Of a stretch of DNA of 48,291 bases, positions 8,244 to 15,054 are shown in pieces (the stretch's first letter is position 1; every line of letters begins with the position of its first letter). The stretch is from Nitrospinaceae bacterium (lineage in GTDB: Bacteria; Nitrospinota; Nitrospinia; Nitrospinales; VA-1): NCBI GenBank assembly GCA_029261695.1, contig JAJDAV010000042.1, positions 1 to 48,291 of the forward strand, given 5' to 3'. Under the pieces are notes generated by a model. It was not told the DNA's origin and searched no databases. It saw only the letters and a program-made list of their open reading frames with translations. The translations under genes and the position numbers were made by a program.

Positions 8244-9377
8244 TTGACCAAAAAATTTATCAATCGTCTGGATCAAGGTCTGAGTGATCTAAAGGAGAGC
8301 CATCTCCATAGAGAAGTTAGATTGTATAATAATTTTGAATGCAATCTAGCGTCCAACGATTATTTTCAGTTGCGCTTTCACCCTAAAGTTATAGCTGGCG
8401 CAAGAAGAGCCTGTGAAAAATTTGGCTCTGGGAGTGGTGCATCCCCTCTTCTATCAGGTTTTCTACCTTGCCATAAAGAACTATTAGAGGAAATTATAGT
8501 TTGGAAACAAAAGCCTTATGGCATGTTGTTCAACTCAGGATTCGTTGCCAATCAGGCAATTTTAAAGCATTTGCCCGGCAAAAAAGATTTAGTCCTCGCA
8601 GATCGACTTATTCATCATTCACTGGCGCAAGCCCTTTTAAGTTGCCCCGCAAAGTTCAAGCGCTACAGCCATTTGGATATGGATGAACTTGAAAAACTTC
8701 TTCAAAAAAATCATGAAAACTTCGACACCCTATTTGTAGTAACAGAAAGCGTTTTTAGCATGGATGGTGACTATCCAGATCTAAAAAAACTGGTCGCCCT
8801 AAAACATAAATATCCCTTCGTATTGGTATTGGATGAGGCTCATGGAACAGGCGTTTTTGGGGAGAATGGAGGGGGCCTGGCAGAGGAAATGGGTGTCCTT
8901 TCCGATGTTGACATTTTGATAGGAACATTGGGCAAGTCGTTGGCTAGCATGGGCGCTTATGTATTGTCACACAATCAGTCAGTCATAGATTATTTAACCA
9001 ATGTTTCAGGGGAATATATTTATTCTACTTTTTTATCGCCATCTCAGGTTGGGGCTGCACTAGAATCCATAAAACTAATAAAAACATACGATGAACAAAG
9101 AAAAAAAATAAGAAGAATATCAAAATATGTCAGAAGCCAATTAAAGCAAAATTACCAGGAATATGAGTCTCCAATAATTCCTATATTTATCGGTGATCCT
9201 CATAAAACTCTAAATTTGAGAGATATATTATTAAAGAATAAAATATTGGTTGGGGCTGTCCGACCCCCCACTGTTCCGAAAGAAACATCACGATTAAGAA
9301 TCTCTCTGCACTCTGATATCAATGAAGAATCCTTAGATATTCTTCTTAATTTAATAAAAACATGGAAAAAAGACTGA
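8244..9377 (+). CDS. bioF: 8-amino-7-oxononanoate synthase
   Basis: This 377-aa alpha-oxoamine synthase condenses pimeloyl-ACP with L-alanine in biotin synthesis. It shows the fold type I PLP pattern: NLASNDYFQL, GSGSGASPLLSG, an FNSGFVANQA segment, LDEAHGTGVFG, and the Schiff-base lysine K231 in GTLGKSLASMGAY. The length is normal for BioF. Related acyltransferases (Kbl, HemA, Spt) share the fold, but a BioH-like esterase and BioC nearby support BioF. The start is TTG at 8244; no upstream in-frame ATG exists and the ribosome-binding site is weak. It overlaps the next gene by 16 bases. Confidence 0.88.
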   Translation: MTKKFINRLDQGLSDLKESHLHREVRLYNNFECNLASNDYFQLRFHPKVIAGARRACEKFGSGSGASPLLSGFLPCHKELLEEIIVWKQKPYGMLFNSGFVANQAILKHLPGKKDLVLADRLIHHSLAQALLSCPAKFKRYSHLDMDELEKLLQKNHENFDTLFVVTESVFSMDGDYPDLKKLVALKHKYPFVLVLDEAHGTGVFGENGGGLAEEMGVLSDVDILIGTLGKSLASMGAYVLSHNQSVIDYLTNVSGEYIYSTFLSPSQVGAALESIKLIKTYDEQRKKIRRISKYVRSQLKQNYQEYESPIIPIFIGDPHKTLNLRDILLKNKILVGAVRPPTVPKETSRLRISLHSDINEESLDILLNLIKTWKKD

Positions 9378-10012
9378 CGATCACTGCAATTTCGGGTTGG
9401 GCAATTCCCGAAACCTGGTTTGAAGAACAAATAAATAATGTGTTTATCGACGCTGACACAAGAATTATTTATCCTAAAAACCCGGAAAACAAAGAAGAAG
9501 CGCGACAAGTTTTAAATCAATATCCATCTGATCTTTATATTGGCTATTCCCTAGGAAGCCTCTGGCTCCTTAAATACCAAGAATTTTTACCACAAAATTG
9601 CCATAAAGCTTTATTGGCGCCAATTTTGGGATTTTTAGATTCAAGCAAATTGGGGGGGAAAACTACAGAAGCACAGTTAAAATATCTGATAAAAATATTA
9701 AAGAACAGCTCCGATGAGACCGAGATTTTGCGGGATTTTTTCTTTCACGCAAATTTGCCCTACCCTGAAACCCAAATTCATGAAATCCACAAAAGAGAAA
9801 TTTTAATAAATGGCTTGGAGTTTCTTAATAATTTTTCTGTTACTGGCAAAGAAACTAATGATTTTTTGTCGATTATAGGGGAAAATGATACTTTTGTGGA
9901 TCCAGAAACTTTAAAAGTGCATATTCCACACTTGAAAATTATAAAGGGAGCTGGGCATTCACCTACTTTATTGCTGAAACAGTTAGCTAATAAATTTCTT
10001 AAATTGAGATAA
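9362..10012 (+). CDS. Alpha/beta hydrolase, candidate pimeloyl-ACP methyl ester esterase (BioH/BioG-like)
   Basis: This 216-aa alpha/beta hydrolase has a readable catalytic triad: S63 in the nucleophile elbow GYSLGS, D176 in GENDTFVD and H199 in GAGHSP. The N-terminal [13 protein letters not shown] matches the start of short BioH/BioG-type hydrolases. Its start lies inside the 3' end of bioF, so the two are translationally coupled. With bioC 2.3 kb downstream, the likely role is removing the methyl ester from pimeloyl-ACP methyl ester, releasing the chain built under BioC. That specificity is inferred from context, since several unrelated esterases fill this step in different bacteria. Confidence 0.7.
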
Positions 10013-10026
10013 ACGATTCATTCTGC

Positions 10027-12288
10027 ATGAAAATATTTGGAATAAATTTTACAGCGAATCCTACGGATAAAAGTCCGATTACGATCGCTCTTTGTGATTT
10101 TAAAAAAAGTCATGGGCTTTCTGTACACAAGGTCCAATTCTTAACCTCAATATCTGAGTTTGAGCTTTTTTTAAAGCAAAAAGGCCCTTGGTTTGCTGGT
10201 GTTAATTTCCCACTGGGGCAGCCCAAGCAGTTTCTTGAAAAAGCAGCTCTACCGCCCGTATGGAATACCTACATTAAAGAAATTCGAAAATGGAAACAAA
10301 CAGGATTTGAAAAAAAGGTAAAACAGTACATCAACAAACTCCCAAAGGGAAATAAATTACCCCTTCGCATAACAGATATATTTGCGGGATCAGATAGTCC
10401 CTTAAAACTCACAGGGAATCATTCTATCCACCGTTTTTTTGAAGGTAGTCATTGCGTACTTAAGTCTGGTGCATCTATCATCCCCTGTTTACCCAAAAAA
10501 GATAATAGAATAATTATTGAAACATTACCTGAATTGGTTGCCCAACGATTTAAAGTTCACGATGCTCAAGGAAAAAGAAAAAAGTCAGAGGCAGAAAATA
10601 TTCATAAAGAAGTAATAAAGGGTTTGGAAACCCCTGAATTTGAGCACGATTTTGATTTTAAATTGTTTATTGATGACACCCTGAAATTACAATGCATCGA
10701 AGATGTTAAAGGTTTTTCTCTTGATGCGATATTAAGCGCAGTTCAGACAGGCTGGTCGTACAATATGGGAAAACCCAATTATGGGATTCCAGATTTACAG
10801 CACCCCAGTATCCAATCCGAAGGCTGGATTATTGATCCTAGTCTGGTTAATGGAATAGCAAAACCTAAGAATAAATTAGGTAACGAGCTTGCAGAGTTTA
10901 TCCAAAAAGGGGGATTAGACTCCAAGAGGTCTTTTAACCTAATGGGTCACATCCAGAGACTATCAAATATTGGCCGAGCATTATCAGGTGAACGCAATTT
11001 AAATGCATTACTAGAAATAATTGTAAATGAGGCAAGAGACCTGACCCATGCTGATGGGGGGACACTTTACATAATGCAAGATGATGTCCTGAATTTTAAA
11101 ATTGTTCAGAACGAATCATTAAATATATTCATGGGTGGCACCACCGGGAAGGACATAACCTTTCCACCTGTCGCGAAAAATATGTCCAATGTCTCTGCTT
11201 ACGTTGCAATAAAGAATATTTCAGTAAATATCCCAGATGTTTATAACTATGAGCCTTTCGATTTTACCGGGCCCAAAAAGTTTGATGAGAAAACAGGTTA
11301 TCGAACCAAATCCATGCTTGTTGTACCACTTACTAACCATGAGGATGTAGTTATAGGGGTTTTACAACTCTTAAACGCTCGGGATATAAAAGATAAGAAA
11401 AGAGTCATTCCGTTTTCCCCTGATTACGAAAGCCTGGTTGAGTCATTAGCCTCCCAAGCAGCGGTAGCAGTTAGCAATGCCTCCCTCATAAATGAAATAA
11501 AATCAGCACATCAAACATTGATTGTTGCTCGAGATAAATCTGAAGAGGCTAACCGCGCAAAGAGTAATTTCCTGGCTAACATGAGTCACGAGCTCCGAAC
11601 TCCCATGAACGCAATCATTGGCTATAGCGAAATGTTATTGGAGGATGCAGAAGAAGAAGGGTTAGATGATTTCACAGATGATCTGGGGAAAATCCGATCA
11701 TCAGGAAAGCATTTATTAGGATTAATTAATGAAATTCTCGATTTATCAAAAATTGAAGCTGGGAAAATGGAAATCCTGCTCGAAAGCTTTGAGATTTCAA
11801 AATTAGTCAAAGAAGTTGAGGGTACAATTCACCCTCTCGCGGAAAAAGGATCGAATAAATTGGTCATAGATTGTCCTGAAGGTATTGGTTATATGGATGC
11901 CGATGAAACCCGAGTCCGCCAAATGCTGCATAACTTATTAAGCAATGCATGTAAATTCACAGAAAATGGCACCGTTACGTTAAAAGTTTTTCGCGATACA
12001 AGAGACGACATCGAGTGGGTTAATTTTGCCATCAGTGATACAGGCATGGGTATCCCGGAAGAATCTATTAACAAGCTATTCCTGGAGTTTTCTCAAGTCG
12101 ACAATTCCTCGACAAGAAAATTTGGAGGTACCGGACTTGGCCTTGCAATCAGCAGGAGGTTTTGCTTAATGATGGGAGGAGATATACGAGTAAGAAGTGT
12201 TTTGAATGAAGGCTCAACCTTCACCATTTATCTCCCAGTTAAAGTAATCACCCAAAAAACACTAAGAAGAAGGCAAAGTGATCGTTAA
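10027..12288 (+). CDS. DUF429-GAF-histidine kinase fusion protein
   Basis: This 753-aa protein has three parts. Residues 1-280 match DUF429 (predicted RNase H-fold nuclease family), with the family segments [39 protein letters not shown] and a closing EGWIID. Residues about 308-485 are a GAF sensor domain. Residues about 500-745 form a histidine kinase: H-box His521 in [19 protein letters not shown]-box N640 in [10 protein letters not shown]1 box DTGMGIP (671-677) and [10 protein letters not shown]. No membrane segment or receiver domain is present, so it looks like a soluble sensor kinase with an unknown partner. Asn occupies positions 7 and 60 where DUF429 usually has Asp, suggesting a sensing rather than cutting N-terminus. 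It lies 14 bases after the esterase gene, within the biotin cluster. Confidence 0.85.
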
Positions 12289-12357: not shown

Positions 12358-13125
12358 TTGACTTTGGATCACCCAAATCGGTCATCAGACATAGAAAAAA
12401 AAATTGTTGAAAGTTTTTCAAAGTATGCTCGTTCTTATGATCGTTACGCACTTTTGCAGCGATCTATGGCAGAGCGACTGGCTTCTTTTTTACCTCAAAA
12501 GCCTCCCCCTCATATTATTGAGCTAGGTTGTGGAACAGGAGTTTTTACTCGGCACCTTTTAACTATGCCCCTAAAAAACCTGACCCTAAATGATATATCA
12601 CCTGAAATGATTAAAATATTGAAAGCGCGTTTATCAACTCCTGGTAATACTAAGTTTTTGGTGGGAAATGCAGAAAAAATCACATTGGAAATGGCAGATT
12701 TAATATGCGCCAATGCAGTTTTTCAATGGTTTGAAAATCCTTTAGAAACGCTAACTGGCTTAAAGAGTTCATTAAATAAAAAGGGAAGTATATTATTTAG
12801 TACATTTGGCCCTGAAACATTGATGGAGTTTCGCCAAGCCGCAAATATAGTTAGCCCAACAACTCTTTATACTATCAAACAATGGAAGAACTTTATAAAG
12901 GACACAGGGTTTGTGTTGAGGTCATTTGATATGGAAAAAAGAAAAATTTTCTCTCCAAGTGCTATGAATTTAATAAAAAATCTTCAGCAAATTGGAGCAG
13001 CACCTATTAGAATGTTTAATGCGGGTGGATTAAGGAAACTAATCAGGGATTACGATAAACATTTTTCTACAGATCAGGGAGTTTATGCAACCTGGGAGCT
13101 CTATTACTTTTCCATTACTTGTTGA
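12358..13125 (+). CDS. bioC: Malonyl-ACP O-methyltransferase
   Basis: This 255-aa class I SAM-dependent methyltransferase matches BioC, which methylates malonyl-ACP to disguise it as a fatty-acid primer. The N-terminal VESFSKYARSYDRYALLQ segment is typical of BioC. The SAM-binding motif I is ELGCGTGVFTRHL (E55-L67). It is followed by an acidic strand with LNDISPEM and by the BioC-like ANAVFQWFENP and LFSTFGPETLMEFR stretches. A TTG at 12358 is the best start, because no in-frame ATG precedes the conserved N-terminus. The gene completes the window's biotin set; bioA, bioD and bioB are not here. Confidence 0.88.
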   Translation: MTLDHPNRSSDIEKKIVESFSKYARSYDRYALLQRSMAERLASFLPQKPPPHIIELGCGTGVFTRHLLTMPLKNLTLNDISPEMIKILKARLSTPGNTKFLVGNAEKITLEMADLICANAVFQWFENPLETLTGLKSSLNKKGSILFSTFGPETLMEFRQAANIVSPTTLYTIKQWKNFIKDTGFVLRSFDMEKRKIFSPSAMNLIKNLQQIGAAPIRMFNAGGLRKLIRDYDKHFSTDQGVYATWELYYFSITC

Positions 13126-13176: not shown

Positions 13177-15054
13177 ATGCCAGCAAATTTCCTCAGTAAA
13201 AATCTAGCTCTCCTAAAATCGCATCATCCAAAAGCATATGAAGTTATTAATAATTCTATTCCAACTAGTAAATTCTTTATTTCGGAATCAAACTCCGGTC
13301 TCCCAACGCTTTCCTATATAAATGATGAAGGGAATCAGATTTGTTTACTTAGCAAATACGACCCCCTTAAAGAAGCCAATAGTTTAATCAATTCCCTAAA
13401 TCCACAAGAACATACAAACTACATTGTTAGTAGTATGGGATTATGCTACCAGATAATCGAACTGATAAAGCTAGCACCTACATCTTCTAGGATTATTGTA
13501 ATCGAACGCAACCCAGAACTAGCCAGGCTTGCCTTTGAAACAAAAGATTTAAGCCAAGTTATACTTTTTCCAGGTTTATCTTTTGCTTTCCCTGAAACAA
13601 CAAATGATGTTCTGACTATTCTAGAAAAAGATAAATTTAATTATTGTTTAAATGGTTATCAACTCGTTAGACAGAAATCTTTACATCAAATAGATGCGGA
13701 AGGTAATAATGAATTTCTCGGGGAATTAGAGAAGTTTTTTCAAGCCGCTACGATCGAACTTAAAACCCAAACAGCAAAGTCTAAATTATTTTACAATAAT
13801 GTTCGCAGGAATTTCTCCAATCTAATATCAAGTAATGGCATAGAGGCCATTAAAAACTCTTTTCAAGATATGCCTGCTATTATTTGTTCAGCAGGCCCCT
13901 CACTTGACAAAAATATTCAATATCTAAAACCTAAAAGAGATAATTTTATTTTAATCTCTGCGGCAACTGCATTAGAGCCATTATTTAAAAATGGGATTTC
14001 ACCTGACTTTGTAGTCGCTATTGACCCAGATGAATTGACACCTCGTTTCTTCGATTTCCAGAGTAAAATTGAAAATACATGGCTTATTTACGACCCTGTA
14101 GTTCCCTCTATTATTCCAGAGTTCTTCAAAGACAAACGCTTTACTTATGACTCACCAGTTAATTTAGCCCAATGGTTAAAAAAGCATATAGGATCTTATG
14201 GCTCACTAGGTAAAGTTTTTTCCGTCGCTCATGCAGCCTTTGAGTTAGCTAATAATATTGGATGCTCACCAATCATTTTCATAGGTCAAGACCTTTCTTT
14301 CTCTGGAAACCGGCTCCACTCAAGGAACTCATATTATTACCAAGAAAAAGAAAAATTATTGGGCCCCATTGAAACGATGGAAAATTTAGATGAGAAAAAA
14401 TTTCGCAAATATTCTGAAAATTTATTTGACGGTCCAAATATATTTGGCGGTCAATTAAAGACAACGGTGGCTCTAGACACTTACGCACAAATGTTGTCGG
14501 ATTCCTTCAGTAATAATTCAAATATTTTCAATGCCACGGAAGGAGGTATGGGAATAAGAGGAACCGAAAATATATTATTGCGTGAAGCTATTAATACTTA
14601 TTGTTGCAAAAACATTTCAACGCTTAAAACAAATATCCTTAAATCTCTTCCACCCATACCCCCTAAAATTGCAGAGGTGCATAAGACGGCAGAGAAAAAA
14701 CTTACGTGTTTTAGAGAGATTTCCAATCAATTAGCTGAACTTGAAACAGGACTGAAGCAAGGGCAATTTATAACAGATATAACCAAAGAGAGTTTTGTGC
14801 GCAAGATGAGGTCAATCATTCAAGACTTGTTAGAGGATGAAGAAGCGACTTTGCTTCTACAAGGTTATGACTATTCGGGGTTTGCTATTTGGAATCAAAA
14901 ATCAAATGAGATATCTAAAAATAAAATGGGTGTCGGAAACCCGGATCGCCTCGAGGAAGAATTTCAACGTGATAAAAATTTTCTTGATAGTTTAAAAAAT
15001 TCTGTAAAATTTCATTTAGATTTTTTTTCAAGTTTGGCAAATAAGGATAACTAG
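13177..15054 (+). CDS. MptE-like (DUF115) motility accessory factor family protein
   Basis: This 625-aa protein belongs to the DUF115 / 6-hydroxymethylpterin diphosphokinase MptE-like family, which includes the Maf flagellin glycosyltransferases. The central core has the hallmark CSAGPSLDKNIQ (AGPSLD from residue 239), ISAATALEPLF, GISPDFVVAIDP and FIGQDLSFSGNRLHS. The C-terminal third is helical and charged. In flagellated bacteria these proteins transfer nonulosonic acids to flagellin, and flagellar genes occur about 20 kb away, but no sugar-synthesis genes are in the window. ATG at 13177 fits the start. Glycosyltransferase activity is inferred from the family. Confidence 0.75.
   Translation: MPANFLSKNLALLKSHHPKAYEVINNSIPTSKFFISESNSGLPTLSYINDEGNQICLLSKYDPLKEANSLINSLNPQEHTNYIVSSMGLCYQIIELIKLAPTSSRIIVIERNPELARLAFETKDLSQVILFPGLSFAFPETTNDVLTILEKDKFNYCLNGYQLVRQKSLHQIDAEGNNEFLGELEKFFQAATIELKTQTAKSKLFYNNVRRNFSNLISSNGIEAIKNSFQDMPAIICSAGPSLDKNIQYLKPKRDNFILISAATALEPLFKNGISPDFVVAIDPDELTPRFFDFQSKIENTWLIYDPVVPSIIPEFFKDKRFTYDSPVNLAQWLKKHIGSYGSLGKVFSVAHAAFELANNIGCSPIIFIGQDLSFSGNRLHSRNSYYYQEKEKLLGPIETMENLDEKKFRKYSENLFDGPNIFGGQLKTTVALDTYAQMLSDSFSNNSNIFNATEGGMGIRGTENILLREAINTYCCKNISTLKTNILKSLPPIPPKIAEVHKTAEKKLTCFREISNQLAELETGLKQGQFITDITKESFVRKMRSIIQDLLEDEEATLLLQGYDYSGFAIWNQKSNEISKNKMGVGNPDRLEEEFQRDKNFLDSLKNSVKFHLDFFSSLANKDN

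Follow-up and report, generated by a model that had tools for sequence, protein, structure and literature searches.

A histidine kinase encoded in the biotin gene cluster of a Nitrospinaceae bacterium is a sensor kinase of a known kind that carries a new N-terminal domain: an RNase H-like fold assigned to DUF429. In the clade to which this sequence belongs, the domain has lost its acidic residues as part of a coordinated set of replacements and has been kept under strong purifying selection, suggesting the conversion of an enzyme into a sensor in this lineage. Histidine kinases mostly receive their input through small sensory folds; here, a predicted nuclease domain appears to have been captured in that role.

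The fusion gene and its surroundings

The window, i.e., the whole stretch of 48,291 nt that was analysed, holds an ORF at 10027-12288 on the forward strand that begins with ATG and encodes a single soluble protein of 753 aa with the architecture DUF429-GAF-HisKA-HATPase_c. The highest hydropathy of this protein over 19 residues is 1.29, no segment being hydrophobic enough for a membrane helix, and the kinase is therefore taken to be cytoplasmic. The gene, its domains, and its neighbours are as follows.

8244..9377, + strand: bioF (8-amino-7-oxononanoate synthase); TIGR00858 is the best match (4e-108), under its curated cut-off
9362..10012, + strand: BioH-like alpha/beta hydrolase with an S63-D176-H199 triad (AlphaFold pLDDT 91, Foldseek); overlaps bioF by 16 nt
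10027..12288, + strand: DUF429-GAF-histidine kinase fusion gene, 753 aa (Pfam domains, hydropathy)
10027..10851, + strand: DUF429 (RNase H-like) domain, residues 1-275, with a degenerate active site (PF04250-positive orthologs; AlphaFold pLDDT 90)
10996..11472, + strand: GAF domain, residues 324-482, resembling GAFs that bind cyclic nucleotides; CyaB2 and PDE5 are the closest solved structures (Pfam, solved-structure matches)
11557..11763, + strand: HisKA dimerisation/phosphoacceptor domain, residues 511-579, with H521 in SHELRTP (Pfam, motif)
11902..12243, + strand: HATPase_c domain, residues 626-739, with intact N, G1, and G2 boxes (Pfam, motifs)
12358..13125, + strand: bioC (malonyl-ACP O-methyltransferase); TIGR02072 4e-51, slightly under its curated cut-off

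The original prediction of a DUF429 domain joined to a GAF domain and a complete histidine kinase was borne out, as was its placement, 14 nt after the BioH-like ORF and 69 nt before bioC. The same prediction stated that the window encodes no response regulator, and a receiver-domain search of the 48-kb window indeed found none. The Pfam matches to the GAF (5.7e-13), HisKA (5.2e-21), and HATPase_c (9.4e-28) domains are strong, and the kinase motifs are all intact: the phosphoacceptor His (H521) and the N, G1, and G2 boxes (NLLSNACKF at 636, DTGMGI at 671, and GGTGLGL at 700). The window belongs to a draft assembly of 220 contigs, in which an assembly chimera or a chance fusion of ORFs might arise; however, at least 24 genomes, two of them assembled as single contigs (G010 and G046), have a complete or near-complete fusion of the same architecture with conserved flanks, and this explanation was rejected as having a negligible chance of being correct.

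The assignment of residues 1-280 to DUF429, also part of the original prediction, failed in a direct profile search and stood by way of orthologs and the predicted fold. PF04250 did not match window residues 1-300 even at E ≤ 10, nor did any other Pfam family, and the window's own N terminus thus falls short of the curated score. Along the full length of the domain, however, residues 1-280 are homologous to proteins that pass it: they are 47% identical to the same region of the G053 ortholog (E 1.7e-78), which PF04250 matches at 5.3e-10 and 39.8 bits (L069; curated cut-off 23), and the L075 ortholog passes as well (6.7e-9, 36.2 bits against 23). The orthologs that pass are 41-47% identical to the window's N terminus, and PF04250 matched 15 of the 23 members of alignment A1, at best with 1e-12. 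Because an ortholog 47% identical to the window clears the curated cut-off, we regard the missing match as a problem of sensitivity with a diverged N terminus, and the candidate reading "not DUF429" was rejected. By homology, the window's N terminus is a degenerate and atypical DUF429 member, in which the acidic strand-end residues are absent.

In the AlphaFold model of this region (pLDDT 90.1, pTM 0.88), strands and helices follow one another as in RNase H-like proteins (E2-7 E18-26 E30-39 H42-49 E55-59 ... E161-165 ... H230-247), with the three-stranded antiparallel sheet, helix, strand 4, helix, and strand 5 of the core. Searched against the PDB with Foldseek, the model gave weak top matches to Ydc2 (E 0.064, probability 0.63) and RuvC (E 0.19), none at E ≤ 0.001, and in a viral library it matched phage resolvases and terminases. 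A DUF429 profile found nothing among solved structures, and a profile comparison of DUF429 with RuvC by hhalign likewise found nothing. Published work placed DUF429 in the RuvC/terminase clade (clade D) of the RNase H-like superfamily and predicted that its active-site residues lie in strands 1 and 4 (PMC3985635); the Foldseek matches, weak as they are, agree with this placement, and together the publication and the model support the original description of DUF429 as a predicted RNase H-fold domain.

Among the neighbours, the BioH-like gene matched no family in Pfam, NCBIfam, or PDB sequences, and a profile search of solved structures was also empty. Its product is modelled as an alpha/beta hydrolase in which S63, D176, and H199 are invariant, with K. 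pneumoniae BioH among the top Foldseek matches; on this structural likeness, it is a candidate for the pimeloyl-ACP methyl ester esterase of Nitrospinota. An MptE-like (PF01973)/PseD-like gene, located at 13177-15054 in the window, follows bioC in most, though not all, of the order and has no known link to biotin. PADLOC returned weak, partial matches only.

Loss of the acidic site

The carboxylates of RuvC are found in strand 1, in strand 4, and in a D-x-x-D motif of the last core helix. The corresponding region of the window differs from its relatives at the following codons.

10045..10047, + strand: codon of N7; Asp in 56/56 relatives outside the clade; closes strand 1 (alignment, AlphaFold, loss test)
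10204..10206, + strand: codon of N60; Asp in 56/56 relatives outside the clade; within it, Asn in 7/9 members and Asp in 2/9; just after strand 4 (alignment, AlphaFold)
10555..10560, + strand: codons of V177-H178, in place of an otherwise invariant Tyr-Lys (alignment, loss test)
10714..10716, + strand: codon of F230, in place of the first Asp of the D-x-x-D-A motif that opens the last core helix; the window keeps D233 (alignment, AlphaFold, loss test)

The original prediction had pointed to Asn at both strand-end positions where Asp is expected (N7 and N60), and both prove to be derived. For the loss test, the 56 relatives (43 standalone and 13 intact fused sequences) served as the reference, in which 25 columns are invariant. 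Eight of these 25 positions (D7, S10, P132, M136, Y177, K178, R193, and D230) are replaced in every one of the nine members of the window's clade, the other 17 not being lost clade-wide; when the same test was applied to 17 other clades or single lineages as controls, between 0 and 2 positions had changed. The replacement of Asp by Asn belongs to a coordinated loss. In the AlphaFold model, position 7 ends strand 1, position 60 comes after strand 4, position 165 ends strand 5, and positions 230 and 233 open the last core helix, and the ends of strands 1 and 4 carry no acidic residue in the window. Given the layout of the RuvC carboxylates, the changes at 7, 60, and 230/233 therefore mean that an acidic site like that of RuvC has been lost. 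The acidic residues are retained in most fused orthologs, so that the fusion is the older event; the inactivation is confined to the window's own clade, where catalysis has probably been lost.

We considered whether the domain in this clade might still be catalytic with a different set of residues. E165, D117, and, in the window, D233 remain, and purifying selection is strong; nevertheless, three of the four acidic positions of the RuvC layout (7, 60, and 230) are gone in the window, Y177, K178, and R193 are lost in all nine clade members, and D233, although present in the window, is missing from seven of the nine, leaving this reading highly improbable. Beside E165 and D117, the clade still keeps R114, T116, S124, W79, and the EGW at 265-267.

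Distribution, order of events, and selection

The same N-terminal region was present in 34 of 100 related genomes. Across the phylum Nitrospinota (77 genomes), 32 genomes carry the DUF429 subfamily; all belong to the window's order, and, apart from remnants and decayed copies, the subfamily occurs at the bio locus only. The carriers' organism names are nearly all Nitrospina, Nitrospinaceae, or Nitrospinota; one sequence labelled as a Thaumarchaeota MAG (L066) carries the Nitrospina locus and is probably a case of binning contamination or mislabelling. No DUF429-kinase fusion was found outside Nitrospinota, either among 42 standalone relatives from eight phyla or among 29 DUF429 genes of another phylum. 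The 42, which were used in the tree, are single-domain ORFs of 270-420 aa belonging to Chloroflexota, Cyanobacteriota, Pseudomonadota, Acidobacteriota, Lentisphaerota, Thermodesulfobacteriota, Nitrospirota, and Melainabacteria; the 29 come from a sample of 151 genomes, the longest ORF being 501 aa. The PF04250 survey of two further phyla comprised 3 and 10 genomes only.

The tree was built without the changed, catalytic columns. The Nitrospinota DUF429 sequences group together (SH-aLRT 93), and the degenerate clade of the window is nested inside this group (SH-aLRT 99); fusion therefore came first and inactivation later. The split DUF429 gene of G048 also falls inside the Nitrospinota group. 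In this genome (L049:6466-8455), a standalone DUF429 gene (282 aa) is followed after 4 nt by a gene for a kinase with the architecture receiver-HisKA-HATPase (378 aa), in the same bio slot, an arrangement most simply read from the sequences as fission with replacement of the kinase. As DUF429 here adjoins a different kinase, its pairing with a kinase has outlived the change of kinase. There are other variants: the G047 fusion has an additional PAS domain between GAF and HisKA, and in G046, G049, and G059, an insert of ~770 nt lies ahead of bioC; the G046 insert is an extra methyltransferase gene located after the kinase gene (L043:9599-10321).

Within the degenerate clade, the one pair with a moderate dS (G025/G044) has a DUF429 dN of 0.088 and dS of 1.21, a ratio of ~0.07, and a higher dN for bioF (0.125); dS is saturated in most pairs, so that dN/dS is usable for few only. 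The degenerate DUF429 is under strong purifying selection and has not decayed to neutral sequence.

The location of the gene suggests another possibility, that the kinase is a dedicated regulator of biotin synthesis that senses a pathway intermediate or demand and controls a bioF-bioH-bioC operon. The slot is constant: bioF, BioH-like gene, kinase, and bioC occur in this order in every fused genome whose contig is long enough, even where pabB/pabC/Lcl no longer flank the cluster (L040, L055, and L048), and the short intergenic gaps suggest a single transcript. Against this, the neighbourhood is conserved in general across the order, the window has no receiver domain, bioB lies on another contig, and the G048 cluster retains DUF429 and a kinase without bioC (outside the cluster, the top bioC-like match in that genome is 27% identical). 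Nor was bioF, a BioH-like gene, or bioC detected near any of the 42 standalone relatives outside Nitrospinota. Moreover, bioF, the BioH-like gene, and bioC are kept in further genomes of this family and order from which the kinase gene is missing; since such losses are repeated, the gene is dispensable and the biotin synthesis genes are independent of the kinase. We consider a role in biotin control unlikely. The neighbourhood survey upheld the biotin-cluster placement given in the original prediction, with the same slot throughout; the link is positional, a matter of synteny. Decayed copies also occur: G015 and G028 hold remnants, the G031 copy is frameshifted around residue 214, and G002, which belongs to the same genus as the window, carries a single nonsense codon within the ATPase domain, the last two being either real or assembly errors.

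Possible inputs and precedents

The second candidate input is the GAF domain. Its best matches among solved structures are CyaB2 (cAMP-binding GAFs, 1ykd; 5e-17) and PDE5 (4e-13), whose GAFs are in tandem where the window has a single one, and it contains a conserved TGYxT stretch. Two close paralogs of this GAF were noted: a GAF-HD-GYP protein of the window's genome (L176:535-2211) and a receiver-GAF-PAS-class III nucleotidyl cyclase of G048 (L195:1006-3291). The GAFs of such HD-GYP and cyclase proteins from the same lineage are 54-68% identical to that of the fusion; a shared small-molecule input is therefore a reasonable reading, and the similarity suggests one ligand common to GAFs across three types of output. 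In the closest pair of fusions, GAF is 96% identical and DUF429 81%, and in most of the pairs compared, conservation is highest in GAF.

These observations bear on the idea that DUF429, its ancestral enzyme activity gone, is only a structural or oligomerisation scaffold in the window's clade and that GAF alone senses. The conservation of GAF and its recurrence in HD-GYP and cyclase proteins are what this idea would lead one to expect, and GAF may be the only real sensor. Still, the retention of R114, T116, D117, S124, and E165, in a domain constrained like bioF, exceeds the need of a mere spacer, and we regard a pure scaffold as possible but doubtful. With regard to the original suggestion that DUF429 had lost its enzyme role and might have become a ligand sensor, the first part agrees with the eight invariant sites lost and the low dN/dS; as to the second, a scaffold is equally allowed and GAF is the better conserved candidate.

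We favour, with moderate confidence, a cytoplasmic sensor kinase in which DUF429 serves, without catalysis, as an input or a scaffold next to a GAF of the cyclic-nucleotide type. A DUF429 domain of RuvC-type layout, its acidic site still present, was fused to GAF and a histidine kinase core in an ancestor of one Nitrospinota order, and in most of that order the domain is still potentially active. In the window's clade, the predicted catalytic carboxylates were lost, and purifying selection holds the fold and the patch of R114, T116, D117, S124, E165, W79, and EGW 265-267. The protein would act as a homodimeric sensor histidine kinase, in which occupancy of the DUF429 pocket, by a ligand that is a nucleotide or resembles nucleic acid, and occupancy of the GAF together set autophosphorylation at H521; the phosphate would then pass to a response regulator encoded elsewhere. 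The architecture, the synteny, the single fused clade, the order of events, the loss of the acidic site, the selection, and the intact kinase motifs come from the sequence data; the loss of catalysis, ligand binding, the coupling to the kinase, and the output are the parts that we infer. That DUF429 senses nucleic acid or a nucleotide is our leading guess, by analogy with RelZ (discussed below), whose DUF429 acts on RNA:DNA hybrids and R-loops; sensing of biotin is a weaker guess. Several points count against the favoured reading, namely (i) the weak Foldseek matches (E 0.06), (ii) the lack of a RuvC profile match, (iii) the better conservation of GAF, and (iv) the dispensability of the gene.

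RelZ (MS_RHII-RSD, MSMEG_5849 of M. smegmatis) joins a ppGpp synthetase to an N-terminal domain whose RNase HII activity is ascribed to DUF429; the protein cleaves RNA:DNA hybrids as well as R-loops, and the two domains are functionally interdependent (PMC4429107, PMC7591505). Compared by published description, both proteins place a DUF429-assigned domain at the N terminus of a signalling enzyme, and RelZ may be taken as the closest functional precedent for such a fusion. They differ in that RelZ synthesises (p)ppGpp/pGpp, has no GAF, and keeps its RNase intact, whereas the window encodes a kinase for phosphorelay, with a GAF and with the acidic site lost. Published DUF429 fusions involve Nudix, RelA/SpoT, and phosphomethylpyrimidine kinase domains (PMC3985635, PMC3153485), and a histidine kinase is not among them. 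The original remark that DUF429 is not known as a kinase input domain thus holds insofar as no kinase fusion was found elsewhere, but the domain is not wholly uncharacterised, RelZ having joined it to a signalling enzyme.

A more far-reaching view, which we consider rather doubtful, is that the fusions form an intracellular kinase class that reads nucleic-acid state (for instance a nucleotide, R-loops, or RNA:DNA hybrids) through the RNase H-like domain, as a phosphorelay counterpart of RelZ. The domain would be active in most of the order, whereas in the Nitrospina lineage it would serve as a pseudo-nuclease receptor. If so, nucleic-acid-state sensor kinases would be a new intracellular class in marine nitrite oxidisers.

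Set against other known systems, the window shares its DUF429 domain with standalone members (PF04250; COG2410, COG4328, COG4923), which are single-domain, unlike the fusion, and outside Nitrospinota lie in ORFs of about 260-420 aa. With GAF-containing sensor kinases it shares the order GAF, HisKA, HATPase_c and the intact catalytic motifs, and it differs from the usual ones in its extra N-terminal RNase H-like domain, with no receiver and no linked regulator. No paper describing an RNase H-fold sensor on a histidine kinase was found in the open-access literature, and we take the DUF429-GAF-histidine kinase architecture to be undescribed within that literature and the genome samples surveyed. 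With intact and inactivated states in living relatives and the order of events on a tree, the family offers a clean natural experiment in enzyme-to-sensor evolution. It also gives a way into DUF429, a poorly understood family, and into the signalling of the main nitrite oxidisers of the ocean, a group that is genetically hard to study.

Kinase genes were also seen beside standalone DUF429 genes. In Pseudanabaena-type cyanobacteria (L093, L102, L107, L109, L117, L137, and others; at least 12 genomes), a Ser/Thr kinase gene lies directly upstream, and the upstream gene encodes a histidine kinase in an acidobacterium (L099) and a PrkA-like kinase in a Vampirovibrio (L119).
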